Part shown: positions 37,561 through 43,063 of the stretch, in pieces
Layout: each line of letters begins with the position of its first letter
Numbering within the stretch: the first letter of the stretch is position 1
Assembly (NCBI RefSeq): GCF_016907925.1
Contig: NZ_JAFBCZ010000005.1
Location: forward strand, 124,001 to 188,000
Length of the DNA: 64,000 bases
Direction: 5' to 3'
From: Herpetosiphon giganteus
GTDB taxonomy: Bacteria > Chloroflexota > Chloroflexia > Chloroflexales > Herpetosiphonaceae
Position numbers and translations under genes: made by a program
The notes under the pieces: generated by a model
What the model was told of the DNA's origin: nothing
Database searches by the model: none
What the model saw: only the letters and a program-made list of their open reading frames with translations

Positions 37561-39276
37561 ATGAAGCGGATTTTAGTTTTAGCTGTTTTTTTGCTCTGTT
37601 TATGGCCAAGCGTGGCGGCGGCGCATGCCTTGGTTATCGAGAGCAGCATTGTTGATGGCGCGGCGCTCGATGTTGCGCCAGCCGAGGTTGTGCTGCGATT
37701 TAGCGAGCCGCTTGACCAAAGTTATAGTTCGCTGACGCTCTACAATGAGCAATCGCAGCCAATTGGGCTTGAGCAAACCACCTTTCCCGCCGCCGATAGT
37801 ATGCAGGTGGCTTTGCCTGCCGAGCTGCGCCCAGGCGAATACACCTTAATTTACAAGGTGCTTTCGACTGCCGATGGCCACCGTTCGGCTGGCTCGTTGC
37901 TGTTTAGCATCGGCACAGGAACCGTGCCAACCGCGCCTTCGGTCGAAGTTAGTGCAACTGCTGATGCTGGCCTCAGTTGGGGCGTGGTCAGTGGCCGCTC
38001 AATCGCCTTAACTGGTGGTTTAGGGGCAATCGGCGGCTTGGCTTGGTTGTTGATTTTGCTCTTGCCAGCGATTCAGCACAATCCTGAATCACGCTTGCCA
38101 TTGCTGCTGCGGCCAACGATTTGGCTCACGCAATTCAGCTTGGTCTTATTGCTGATTGGCTCAATTTGGGAATTTGTGGTGCGCGCCAGCGATTTTGGCG
38201 ATGGCAGCTTGGCCTCAATTCAATATGCTGATGTGCTGTCGTCGATGGCAATGAGCCGTTGGGGCATTTTGGCGTTGATTCGCTTGGTTGCGATTACGCT
38301 CTTGATTCCGTTGACCTTCTTGGCTGCCTATCGCAAGCCAATGGGCTATCTGGCCTTGGGCTTGGCCTGTTTGAGCCTCTTGACGTTTAGCATGAGCGGC
38401 CATGCTGCGGCCAATATCGATGACCCCATCACGCCAGTTGCCTCAGATTGGCTGCATATGCTGACGGCGGCGGTTTGGTTTGGCGGCTTGATTGGCATGG
38501 CTTTGAGTGCTTGGGTCTTGCGCAAAACCGAAGCTGCCGCCCGCAACAGCGCTTTGGCGTGGCTAATTGCCCGCTTTAGCCCGTTGGCTTTGTTTAGCAT
38601 TGCCTTGGTGGTGCTGACGGGTACGATGCGCACCTTCGACCAACTGCCAACTTTGGCTGGTTTGTGGGAATCGCGCTACGGCCAAACCTTGTTGATCAAG
38701 CTGGCAGTGATGGTTGCCACGCTGTTGCTCGGTTTTTGGCATTGGCGCAAGCTTAATCCGCGCTTGCAAGCTGCCAAAGATCAAGCAACCGTGGTTAAAA
38801 TTGGCCTGACCTTGGGCTTAGAAAGCACATTGGCCATTGGCGTGATTTTGGTCGCCAGCGCCTTGACCCAAACGCCACATCCGGTTAAAGCCGCTCCCAG
38901 CGCAGGTGGAACCGCCCAACCAACCTTGCCCACGCCAACCCCGCGTGTAGCTCAGCCCTTCAATCTGACTGCTCAGCAAGAAGGCTTGACCATGACACTC
39001 TCTATTGATGATAACCGCCCAGGTGAGCGTCGATTTAGTGCTGGCGTTCGCGATACGAATGGCGTAATTCAGCCAGATCGGGTACGCTTACGCTTTGAAT
39101 CGCTTGATCTCGAAGCTGGTCAACAGGTGGCAATTCTCGAAGCCGATGCTGATGGACTCTACAGCGCAACTTCGGGAGCGCTAAGCTTGGTTGGGCGCTG
39201 GAAGATCGAAATGCAAGTGCGGCGGGTTAATCTGCCCGATGTCACTGCTGAATGGACTGTGGAGATAACGCGCTAA
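37561..39276 (+). CDS. CopC-CopD fusion copper protein
   Basis: Residues 1-21 are a signal peptide. The mature protein starts H22 (HALVIESS), and the CopC domain continues to about 120 with the copper motif TADGHRSAGSLLF. Eight or so membrane helices (about 150-440) form a CopD/PcoD-like domain with conserved His in GHAAANIDD and WLHMLTAAVWFGG. A C-terminal extracytoplasmic beta domain (about 470-571) resembles YtkA-like modules. It probably takes up or handles copper for secreted or respiratory enzymes. Its stop overlaps the hisG start by one base. Confidence 0.92.
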   Translation: MKRILVLAVFLLCLWPSVAAAHALVIESSIVDGAALDVAPAEVVLRFSEPLDQSYSSLTLYNEQSQPIGLEQTTFPAADSMQVALPAELRPGEYTLIYKVLSTADGHRSAGSLLFSIGTGTVPTAPSVEVSATADAGLSWGVVSGRSIALTGGLGAIGGLAWLLILLLPAIQHNPESRLPLLLRPTIWLTQFSLVLLLIGSIWEFVVRASDFGDGSLASIQYADVLSSMAMSRWGILALIRLVAITLLIPLTFLAAYRKPMGYLALGLACLSLLTFSMSGHAAANIDDPITPVASDWLHMLTAAVWFGGLIGMALSAWVLRKTEAAARNSALAWLIARFSPLALFSIALVVLTGTMRTFDQLPTLAGLWESRYGQTLLIKLAVMVATLLLGFWHWRKLNPRLQAAKDQATVVKIGLTLGLESTLAIGVILVASALTQTPHPVKAAPSAGGTAQPTLPTPTPRVAQPFNLTAQQEGLTMTLSIDDNRPGERRFSAGVRDTNGVIQPDRVRLRFESLDLEAGQQVAILEADADGLYSATSGALSLVGRWKIEMQVRRVNLPDVTAEWTVEITR

Positions 39277-40277
39277 TGCTACGTTTTGCTGTGCCTTCCA
39301 AAGGTGCTCTTGCTGATGATACGTTTCGCTTTTTCGAAAGCTGTGGCCTGAAAATCTCGCGGCCAAATCCTCGTCGCTACACTGCTTCGATTAAAGCCTT
39401 GCCCGAGGTTGAGGTTTTGTTGAATCGCGTGCCCGATATTGTCGAGAAGGTCGCCGAAGGCTCGATCGATTTGGGCGTAAGCGGCTACGATCTGGTCGAG
39501 GAACTTGGCGGCGAAAGCGATGATCTGGTGGTGGTCTACAAAGATTTGGGCTTTGGCTATTGCGATTTGGTGCTGGCCGTGCCTGATCACTGGATTGACG
39601 TAACGTCATGGCGCGATGTGGCCGACTTGGCAGCAGAGTATGCGCGCTCTGGCCGCCAACTGCGAATTGCGACCAAGTTTCCCAATTTGGTGCGCCAATG
39701 GTGCCACCAACAAGGCATCAACGTCTTTGCCTTGATCGACTCGCAAGGGGCTACCGAAGCCGCGCCATCGTTGGGATATGCAGACATCATTGCCGATTTG
39801 ACAGCCACTGGGACAACCCTCCGCGATAATCATCTCAAGATGATTCAAGGAGGCACGATTCTGCAAGCGCAAGCTGCATTAATTGCCAATCGGCGCTCAC
39901 TCCGCGAAAGTTCGCAAAAACAACGAGTTGTGCAATCGATTTTAGAGCTGATCGAAGCCCGCCATCGCGCCAAAACCTATGTTTCGCTAATTGCCAATGT
40001 GCCAGGCGCTGATGTCGCCGATGTTGGCGCGCGGGTGGTCGCGCATCCAGCGTTGGCGGGATTGCAAGGCCCAACGGTTTCGCCAGTGTGGAGCCGCGAT
40101 GGTGGCGACGGTTGGTACGCAGTATCGTTGGTCGTCGATAGCGCCAACATTCTGCCAGCCATCGATCACCTGCGCTCGATCGGCTCAAGTGGGATCACGG
40201 TTTTGCCGGTGCACTATGTTTTTGCTGAACGATCGCAAAGTTTTGCCGCATTGAACGAATTAATGCACAAAAGCTAG
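39276..40277 (+). CDS. hisG: ATP phosphoribosyltransferase, long form
   Basis: It catalyses the first step of histidine synthesis, ATP plus PRPP to phosphoribosyl-ATP. The 333-residue protein starts MLRFAVPSKGALADDTF and contains the periplasmic-binding-type catalytic core (DLGVSGYDLVEE, IADLTATGTTLRDN for the PRPP site) and a C-terminal regulatory domain (about 255-333), so it is the long form that does not need HisZ. ATG overlaps the copCD stop (TAATG), implying coupling to an unrelated copper gene. No other his genes are nearby, and rvt follows 29 bp later. Confidence 0.94.
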   Translation: MLRFAVPSKGALADDTFRFFESCGLKISRPNPRRYTASIKALPEVEVLLNRVPDIVEKVAEGSIDLGVSGYDLVEELGGESDDLVVVYKDLGFGYCDLVLAVPDHWIDVTSWRDVADLAAEYARSGRQLRIATKFPNLVRQWCHQQGINVFALIDSQGATEAAPSLGYADIIADLTATGTTLRDNHLKMIQGGTILQAQAALIANRRSLRESSQKQRVVQSILELIEARHRAKTYVSLIANVPGADVADVGARVVAHPALAGLQGPTVSPVWSRDGGDGWYAVSLVVDSANILPAIDHLRSIGSSGITVLPVHYVFAERSQSFAALNELMHKS

Positions 40278-40306
40278 CAGAATGTGGCTCCTTGCTGGAG
40301 GCACTG

Positions 40307-42667
40307 ATGTTAACTGCAACTGAACAATTGGTAACTGCAATTAAATTGCGCGAGTTGGGCTTGCAACGTGAGCAAGCCCTTGCAACCTATGCTGAAATTA
40401 GCCAACAATTAGCCACACTTGAAGAACCCCATGCCCGCATTAAGCTCCTGCAGGAGCAATTGCAGCAATTAACCTTTGCCAAACAGCCGCTGCACCCGAG
40501 CATTAGCAACATGCGTTTATTAAGCGATCCGGCTACGCCTGCTAGCCCTGAATTAACCGCTTGGTGGTCGGCTGAGCTTGAGCGTGAATTGGCCAGTGGT
40601 CAGCTGCGCGCCGAATTGGTTTCGATATTTGGCGCAGTCTTCCAAGAGTGGCTTGATCATGCCGAAGTTAACGCGCCCCATGCTGAGCAAGCCCAGCGCT
40701 TGGTCGAACACATTAATCAGCCTGGGATGGCAACCAAGCACGGGCCAGTCCTCGATCGTATCTTTCACGATCAGCTTGATCCTGAAAGCCGCGCCGAATT
40801 AACCACCATGCTGCATGCTGAGCCAGCGTTGCTTGATGATGATTTGCGTGCTGCGATGTTGCGGCGTATTGCCAACGATAGCTTTTATAGCGCTGCCACG
40901 CGGGCCGAGGCCCGCCAAATCGTGGGCGATCCGATTATGCTCAAAGAATTGGCCGATGCTTTGTTGTTGCTGCGTGAGCATTTGGGCAGTTGGCGCTGGC
41001 CCAAGGCTGGTGTTGCCGCAGTAGCGCAATATGCACGGACCAAATGGCGCTTGTTTTTGCAAGAAGATTTGGTGACCGCGTGTTTGCATTACTTGGTTGC
41101 CGAGCAGTGGCAAGCCTATTTTGCCAAATTTTGCCAGCTCAATGGTACGTTTCCCTTGAAAAAACTCAAGCGCATCGCCCAAGATCGCGGCTACGATCGC
41201 GATTTGAACAAGCTAATTGCCGAAAGCTACACGCTGGCTAAAAGTGTCAATTTGTGGCATAGCCTGCGCCGCCCGCTTGCCCACGATGCTGCTGAACACC
41301 TTGAGTTGTATGGCAATTCCAGTTCGATTTTTGCCAGTCGGGCTAGCGAAATTCAGCGCTTGCAACAATGGAGCCAATTGGCCGAATACGATGCGCAATA
41401 TGAACATAATCTTGAAATTGCGCTGCGTTTGATCAACGCCGAAATTCAGCTTGGCCTGCATGCCACACCTGATCAACCAATCTATGTGCTCAAAACTGAT
41501 TTCCGTGATTATTATCCTTCGCTCAATCAGCAATTTGTGCTGGATATTTTGCAGCGGATGGGACTGAACGAGCAGCAACTTGGCTTTTTTGCCGAATATA
41601 TGGCTGTGCCGTTGCAGGTCAATCAGCAAGCAACCAAGCAGCAGGTTGGCCTGCCCAATCATCGGCCAATTTCAGACATTTTGGGCGAATTGGTCCTGCG
41701 TTTGTTGGAACAGTATCTTGAATTGCATGCTCATGTGCAAATCGTGCGTTTCGTTGATGACCTGACGATTATTGCCACCGATCCCGAGGAACTTGTGAAA
41801 GCTTGGCGGGCCTTGCAAACATGGTGTGCGAGCTGTGGCTTGGCTTTGAATCAGCAAAAAACTGGCGCAATTGCGATTAATGGCCAATTGCCAAGCGAAT
41901 TGCCGCAGCAAACGCCACATTGGCTCTTTCTGACCCTAGATCAGCGCGGCGTATGGCAACTTGATCAACATTTGATTCGCGAATATATTAACCAAACCAC
42001 TCAAGCGATCACGAATACACCTGCAATTCTTAATAAAATTGAGGTGTATAATGGGGCTTGCAGCTACCTATGCCAAGCGATTGGCCTACGGGTCAACCTT
42101 GGAGCCAGTCATAGGGAGCAGCTGCGCACAACCTTATGGCGTTATGGCCAACAAGTTATTCAACAAGGCAGCATGGTGGCCTATGTTGGCGATTTGATTC
42201 GTCAGCGTTTGCAGAGTCGTGTGCAATTGCCAGAGGCTTGGTTTCATTGGCCAATGACGGCTGGTGGTTTGGGCATTCAACAACCGTTGATCATCGCTCA
42301 TAGCTACCAAGAAACGTGGCAAACACTATCAGCACCAACCGTGCCATCAGAACGCTCAGCTTGGTGGCAACAAAACGATAATCCATGGGCTAGTTTTTAT
42401 CGCCATTGGTTGCAAACAATTGAGCCAAGCGAACCAGAAGCCAACAGTGTCCTAACATCATTAACCACTGATTTTATTGCGCGGGGCGGCGAAGTGCGCG
42501 CAAGCGAACAAGCTGGTTTATCGGCCTACTGGCGCTGGATATTGGCATTGTATGGGCCGCAAATTCTCGAACGTTGTGGAAGTTTTCGGTTTCTGTTTAC
42601 AGAACTTGTGCCACTTCAATTAATTGCGCGTAAATCTGCCAATAGATTGCATGGGACGCTCGAATAA
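40307..42667 (+). CDS. rvt: RVT: reverse-transcriptase-related cellular protein
   Basis: The 786-residue protein has an N-terminal coiled coil (about 1-70), a large helical N-terminal region, a palm domain and a long C-terminal domain. RT motif A is LKTDFRDYYPSLN (D398), motif B is around GLPNHRPISDIL, and motif C is IVRFVDDLTII (D484 and D485), followed by CGLALNQQKTG. The coiled coil, long extensions and C-terminal tyrosines (Y741 and Y749) fit the rvt class, single-copy RT-like genes of fungi and rare bacteria. From memory, the Herpetosiphon protein multimerises, uses Mn and may self-prime. No maturase, retron, DGR or CRISPR partner is visible. ATG follows GGAGG by 5 nt; hisG is 29 bp upstream. 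The cellular role is unknown. Confidence 0.88.
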   Translation: MLTATEQLVTAIKLRELGLQREQALATYAEISQQLATLEEPHARIKLLQEQLQQLTFAKQPLHPSISNMRLLSDPATPASPELTAWWSAELERELASGQLRAELVSIFGAVFQEWLDHAEVNAPHAEQAQRLVEHINQPGMATKHGPVLDRIFHDQLDPESRAELTTMLHAEPALLDDDLRAAMLRRIANDSFYSAATRAEARQIVGDPIMLKELADALLLLREHLGSWRWPKAGVAAVAQYARTKWRLFLQEDLVTACLHYLVAEQWQAYFAKFCQLNGTFPLKKLKRIAQDRGYDRDLNKLIAESYTLAKSVNLWHSLRRPLAHDAAEHLELYGNSSSIFASRASEIQRLQQWSQLAEYDAQYEHNLEIALRLINAEIQLGLHATPDQPIYVLKTDFRDYYPSLNQQFVLDILQRMGLNEQQLGFFAEYMAVPLQVNQQATKQQVGLPNHRPISDILGELVLRLLEQYLELHAHVQIVRFVDDLTIIATDPEELVKAWRALQTWCASCGLALNQQKTGAIAINGQLPSELPQQTPHWLFLTLDQRGVWQLDQHLIREYINQTTQAITNTPAILNKIEVYNGACSYLCQAIGLRVNLGASHREQLRTTLWRYGQQVIQQGSMVAYVGDLIRQRLQSRVQLPEAWFHWPMTAGGLGIQQPLIIAHSYQETWQTLSAPTVPSERSAWWQQNDNPWASFYRHWLQTIEPSEPEANSVLTSLTTDFIARGGEVRASEQAGLSAYWRWILALYGPQILERCGSFRFLFTELVPLQLIARKSANRLHGTLE

Positions 42668-42747
42668 AATTCCACGTGGGCAAAATCTCCATTCATTACC
42701 CGATAGTACTTTAAGGGTTGCTTTTTTAATATTAATCAAAGCCAAGC

Positions 42748-42836
42748 GAGGTGATTAATAACTCCTACAGGGGATAGTTAATCACCTCTGAATAGCAGGC
42801 TTAATCACCTTTTTCTACTCCCTTGACTGTGATTAA
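42748..42836. promoter_or_regulatory. Array of four inverted GTGATTAA elements
   Basis: GTGATTAA or its complement occurs at 42751, 42778, 42801 and 42829 in the order plus, minus, minus, plus, about 27, 23 and 28 bp apart. The first pair extends to perfect 11-bp arms GAGGTGATTAA/TTAATCACCTC around a loop with CTCC/GGGG. It could be an operator set for the downstream gene or structured RNA in the rvt 3' region. Confidence 0.5.
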
Positions 42837-42862
42837 CAACGCTAGCTAGCTATGTTAGTATT

Positions 42863-42876
42863 TGTAAACGTTTACA
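42863..42876. promoter_or_regulatory. LacI/CcpA-type operator palindrome
   Basis: TGTAAACGTTTACA is a perfect 14-bp palindrome and fits the catabolite-responsive element pattern TGWAANCGNTNWCA bound by LacI/GalR-family regulators. It lies 188 bp before the APH-like kinase gene, downstream of a TTGACT-type -35 (42823). No LacI-type regulator is encoded in the window. Confidence 0.6.
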
Positions 42877-43063
42877 CATATTAAAAAGCCCTAACTATAC
42901 TGTGAGCAAGCAGCATCTATTCAACCATTGCTCAAGAGGCTATCAATCGTAAAGTCGTGTGAAAGTTAGGCGCTGTACATTCTAGCCATTCCCCACTGCG
43001 CGGCAATGTGAGCCGCATAACCAATGGTGGTGGAACTCGTATAAAGGAAGGAGCGGGCGAACG

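Follow-up and report, generated by a model that had tools for sequence, protein, structure and literature searches.

What kind of reverse transcriptase (RT) is encoded by a gene that lies among housekeeping genes of Herpetosiphon giganteus, and what might the cell use it for? We analyzed a stretch of 64,000 nucleotides, hereafter the window, from the genome of this bacterium (6.16 Mb in 85 contigs). The open reading frame, the Pfam RVT_1 and PADLOC RT_UG37 (UG37) profiles and alignment identify an RT-related gene of 786 codons at positions 40307..42667, on the + strand like the other annotated features of this locus. An earlier note on this DNA had assigned the gene to the rvt class, reportedly defined by Gladyshev and Arkhipova in 2011. 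The frame is intact, running without frameshift from ATG 40307 to a stop codon at 42665-42667, and its product matches RVT_1 over residues 388-522 (E = 3.8e-13). A ribosome-binding site, GGAGG, is located 5 nt 5′ of the ATG (40297..40301) and is kept in 6/6 Herpetosiphon genomes. The ORF finder also listed a TTG at 40292, which would yield a protein of 791 residues and is the less likely start.

The palm residues named in the earlier note, D398, D484 and D485, were found at the positions given there. Together with Y741 and Y749 of the long C-terminal domain, which it had also singled out, they are invariant in 15 homologues with identities down to about 31%, as judged from a 13-row alignment and an 11-row alignment adding two more divergent homologues. 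D398 belongs to motif A (RT3; 41480..41521), placed by the translated frame, the alignment and the predicted structure. In the alignment, motif B (RT4; 41648..41698) reads GLPNHRPISDILGELVL, replacing the usual PQG...LLAN, and motif C (RT5; 41744..41779) surrounds VRFVDDLTII, with the catalytic D484 and D485. Most UG37 members have a motif B of the form G-x-P-x-x-x-x-[SG]-D-x-L-x-E, without the usual PQG, that is nearer to that of RTs retrieved by the Drt6 model than to that of group II RTs. The C-terminal domain, delimited by alignment and predicted structure, spans residues ~546-786 (41942..42664); its two invariant tyrosines are candidate priming residues in light of published work.

The structure of the protein was predicted with AlphaFold at medium confidence (pLDDT 77.7, pTM 0.79). 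A long helix (residues 4-37) opens the model, which then shows a hairpin (residues 238-251), a palm that starts at residue 392 and a helical C-terminal domain. The model is poor at residues 728-734 and 770-786, which flank Y741 and Y749 on both sides. The N-terminal helix (40316..40417) shows a heptad pattern around residues 13-40 that scored shuffle p values of 0.00-0.034 in 12 of 13 homologues, in a general heptad test rather than a dedicated coiled-coil predictor; this is compatible with a putative coiled coil. We infer that the predicted β-hairpin (41018..41059), in the RT1/RT2 region of the fingers according to model and alignment, corresponds to RT2; its R248 is invariant, and K246 is present in at least 90% of the rows. 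The fingers-palm segment that follows (residues 252-391; 41060..41479) has about 85-90 extra residues relative to group II and CRISPR-type RTs. With the predicted hairpin as anchor, about 147 residues separate it from the motif A Asp, compared with about 60 in 23 other RTs, in a pattern-based comparison from which one further value was set aside as a pattern mis-hit. For RVT, PMC5718144 describes a "big insertion loop 2a" as well as a "very long branch", and the enlarged segment in the predicted structure, a candidate loop 2a, matches that description.

Exactly one copy of the gene was found in each of the six Herpetosiphon genomes searched, and the protein is 83% identical to its orthologue in H. 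aurantiacus DSM 785 (CP000875.1:3377948-3380284). The gene order copCD-hisG-RT-APH-HAD is conserved in H. aurantiacus, H. geysericola and H. llansteffanensis. Over 15 pairs, dN/dS ranged from 0.07 to 0.15, so that the gene is clearly under purifying selection; the values for hisG were lower (0.01-0.025). Full-length relatives (31-40% identical) were seen in a MAG of the Herpetosiphonaceae, in a further family of that order, in Ktedonobacterales and Dictyobacter, in a MAG of the Anaerolineae, and in Catellatospora and Virgisporangium. UG37 family genes were detected in 15 of 400 sampled Chloroflexota genomes, in three of the 15 only as fragments or stop-containing copies. The family is therefore rare and patchy outside Herpetosiphon, in keeping with the note, which had called the class very rare in bacteria.

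Outside Herpetosiphon the neighboring genes differ in every lineage, and a comparison of the neighbors of homologues revealed no conserved partner gene. Scans of viral contigs with two family members returned no relatives, and tblastn returned no phage or plasmid copies. With the single copy and the stable synteny, these results uphold the claim that the gene has no mobile-element context. One genome of a Dictyobacter-like genus (g95) contains a UG37 remnant (L063, G445:C1:634898-635839) with four stop codons, covering only the first 309 profile positions, which suggests decay of the gene in that genome. Besides the window gene, the H. giganteus genome has just one clear RT-like sequence, an AbiA-like RT frame on another contig (L023, G000:C4:266257-266652) that is broken by a TGA.

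Upstream, hisG (39273..40277; annotation and synteny) points in the same direction as the RT gene and ends 29 nt before its ATG. Among the Herpetosiphon genomes that we compared, this gap is 28-29 nt long, which suggests that the RT gene, although endowed with its own ribosome-binding site, may be co-transcribed with this histidine-biosynthesis gene. The linkage is confined to Herpetosiphon and absent in other lineages, and it therefore lends little weight to a role in starvation, attractive as that would be.

As the earlier note had claimed, no maturase domain, retron RNA or CRISPR neighbor accompanies the gene: we found no Rfam RNA near it and no CRISPR or retron genes among its neighbors. 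The flanks of other homologues had no DNA in common and no flanking RNA common to the family. An intergenic block downstream, 42740-42900, is single-copy, near-invariant in 6/6 Herpetosiphon genomes and confined to that genus. It contains inverted GTGATTAA/TTAATCAC repeats, a promoter-like TTAACA-17-TAGTAT and a LacI-family-like palindrome, TGTAAACGTTTACA. The last two elements (42833..42876) read as a probable promoter and operator of the downstream APH/HAD genes, which the block probably regulates. Its covariation term was +0.73, a value that its near-invariance makes uninformative for base pairing. We considered the block as a cognate noncoding RNA of the RT and rejected it on the grounds of its restriction to Herpetosiphon and its promoter/operator-like content.

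A search with RT profiles returned one full-length match. PADLOC RT_UG37 aligned end to end over residues 1-778 with 1205.6 bits, far beyond chance; all other RT models (Pfam, NCBIfam, PADLOC and PHROGs) matched the palm region only, with at most 57 bits. The best NCBIfam profile was that of group II introns (TIGR04416), and this match could be taken to mean that the RT of a group II intron or retron was captured recently or is in decay. Its 56.9 bits, however, fall short of the cut-off of 300, as do those of the retron St85 model (30.3 versus 235 bits), AbiA (10.3 of 250), Drt3a (45.7 of 200), Drt4 (19.5 of 450) and Drt5 (27.8 of 550). The AbiP2 profile gave 40.9 bits and Drt9 gave 54 bits, the latter in the palm only. 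A fold search retrieved only generic RTs (R2, LINE-1, group II and DRT9), with TM scores on the query of at most 0.41, and no solved RVT structure came up.

We inferred a palm tree of 54 rows and 190 columns (LG+C20 PMSF), without DGR, AbiK and AbiP2 rows and with the non-UG37 rows labeled by retrieval and by profile scans of a few rather than one by one. In this tree, UG37 formed an isolated lineage (support 100/99) whose stem measured 2.54 changes per column, apart from the group II and CRISPR-type rows and one retron row (89/91). It also lay apart from eight RTs retrieved by the Drt6 model, in a split (63/73) that the tree leaves unresolved. Of the placements that the earlier note had named as contrary to its assignment, inside group II intron, retron, DGR or Abi clades, the tree covered the first two, the second with a single row; UG37 fell inside neither of these, nor inside the CRISPR-type rows. 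The gene is moreover intact in six species with low dN/dS, has no maturase or endonuclease domain, and shows no Rfam intron and no Rfam msr/msd match at its locus, where all six genomes are devoid of such elements. A group II or retron origin by recent capture or decay is thus extremely improbable.

Is this gene, then, the bacterial rvt of the literature? Yushenova and Arkhipova reportedly performed biochemistry on the recombinant RVT of H. aurantiacus in 2018. Our RVT_1 survey of H. aurantiacus DSM 785 yielded several group II-type/HNH ORFs, one retron RT, one 431-residue CRISPR-type RT and, lastly, the window gene's orthologue. As this orthologue is the only RT that fits, we treated it as the published bacterial rvt. 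A 608-residue retron-type RT on a smaller H. aurantiacus replicon (L054, G001:C2) is best matched by RT-Toprim (type I-C) retron models. The rvt assignment made in the earlier note agrees with every trait open to a check, namely the single copy, synteny, the lack of mobile-element context, the Asp residues, dN/dS, the enlarged fingers-palm segment, the tyrosines and the isolated branch, and the N-terminal heptad helix is compatible with it. The RT gene is very probably orthologous to the bacterial rvt already published, and thus a domesticated, vertically inherited, single-copy gene, the match being made by RT inventory and not by accession. It could be argued that UG37 is separate from rvt and that the RVT_1 and UG37 searches missed a different gene, the actual rvt published from Herpetosiphon, since RVT_1 could overlook a divergent RT and our comparison was made without a fungal sequence or the accession of the published protein. 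Against this, H. aurantiacus DSM 785 has a single RT whose size and architecture fit, and all checkable rvt hallmarks are present, which makes a second, overlooked gene very unlikely.

From these sequence comparisons, rvt and PADLOC UG37 look like one family under two names. The gene thus almost certainly represents a known family, in the very genus in which bacterial rvt was characterized, and not a new discovery. The earlier note is silent both on this previous description in Herpetosiphon and on the equivalence with UG37. Our literature searches, of partial coverage, returned no primary paper on UG37 or on Herpetosiphon rvt; as far as they reached, the equation of rvt with UG37, the occurrence of relatives in two genera of actinomycetes and the link with hisG are new. 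We consider it conceivable, though on balance doubtful, that bacterial rvt and UG37 form one family, so that eukaryotic rvt genes would have descended from, or would share ancestry with, the radiation of bacterial protein-primed UG/Abi/DRT RTs. An origin of telomerase from DRT10 is said to have been proposed earlier. Among RTs, rvt is described as the one type that occurs in both bacteria and eukaryotes (PMC5718144).

By analogy with published rvt proteins, the window protein is most likely an oligomeric, Mn-dependent, tyrosine-primed polymerase, weakly templated or non-templated, that would be used in stress. The N-terminal coiled coil would drive assembly of the oligomer, as published rvt work suggests. 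The palm residues D398, D484 and D485, with Mn2+, would then add nucleotides to a tyrosine hydroxyl, that of Y741 and/or Y749, the conserved tyrosines of the C-terminal domain. The products would be short chains, weakly templated or non-templated, covalently bound to the protein, and this activity may aid the cell in stress, e.g., translation inhibition or amino-acid starvation. The protein sequence is compatible with each of these steps and proves none; oligomerization, priming, non-templated synthesis and the stress role are carried over from the published proteins. Two articles cite bacterial rvt as tyrosine-primed (PMC12632851, its ref. 24; PMC12483538). According to a meeting report, rvt relieves stress and polymerizes without a template (PMC10680173). 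Inhibition of translation induces the RVT of Neurospora crassa, a protein with terminal transferase activity (PMC3520738).

Tyrosine priming is also known from Abi RTs and DRT9 (PMC12483538), and the window protein might instead be an antiphage defense RT in which infection triggers protein-primed DNA synthesis, as in AbiK or DRT9. The S-D-x-L-x-E motif B resembles that of Drt6-model RTs, and the patchy occurrence outside Herpetosiphon (15/400 Chloroflexota genomes, with different neighbors each time) would suit such a role. PADLOC lists RT_UG37 under DRT, but such a label is not a demonstrated function, and the cut-offs of Drt3a, Drt4, Drt5 and AbiA were not reached. The locus context argues against defense: the neighbors in the window are housekeeping genes (SMC, cytochrome c, CopC/CopD, HisG, APH and HAD), synteny is fixed within Herpetosiphon, and the 34 neighbor proteins are almost free of matches to defense models, an SMC ATPase and one TIR protein being the exceptions. 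The lack of phage or plasmid copies and of a flanking RNA common to the family points the same way. We therefore regard a defense function as unlikely and favor the domesticated rvt with a probable stress role. The fixed Herpetosiphon locus offers a clean deletion target for rvt. If others have not noted it, the equation of rvt with UG37 joins two literatures and makes the choice between defense and stress directly testable.

Among known systems, AbiK, Abi-P2 and DRT9 are comparable as published oligomeric, tyrosine-primed RTs (PMC12483538), but the Drt9 match is limited to 54 bits in the palm, the family has no flanking noncoding RNA in common, and the N- and C-terminal parts are different. 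PADLOC RT_UG37 matches over the full length (1205 bits), yet it is filed under defense RTs whereas the window locus has no defense context. The fungal RVT of N. crassa, set beside our protein by description only, has loop 2a, a single copy and no mobile context in published accounts; terminal transferase activity was reported there, whereas the window protein is known from its sequence. As to H. aurantiacus rvt, the biochemistry belongs to the published protein of that other species, but the two proteins come from the same genus and from orthologous loci, are 83% identical, and have in common the N-terminal heptad helix, the RT core with its catalytic Asp residues and the C-terminal tyrosines.
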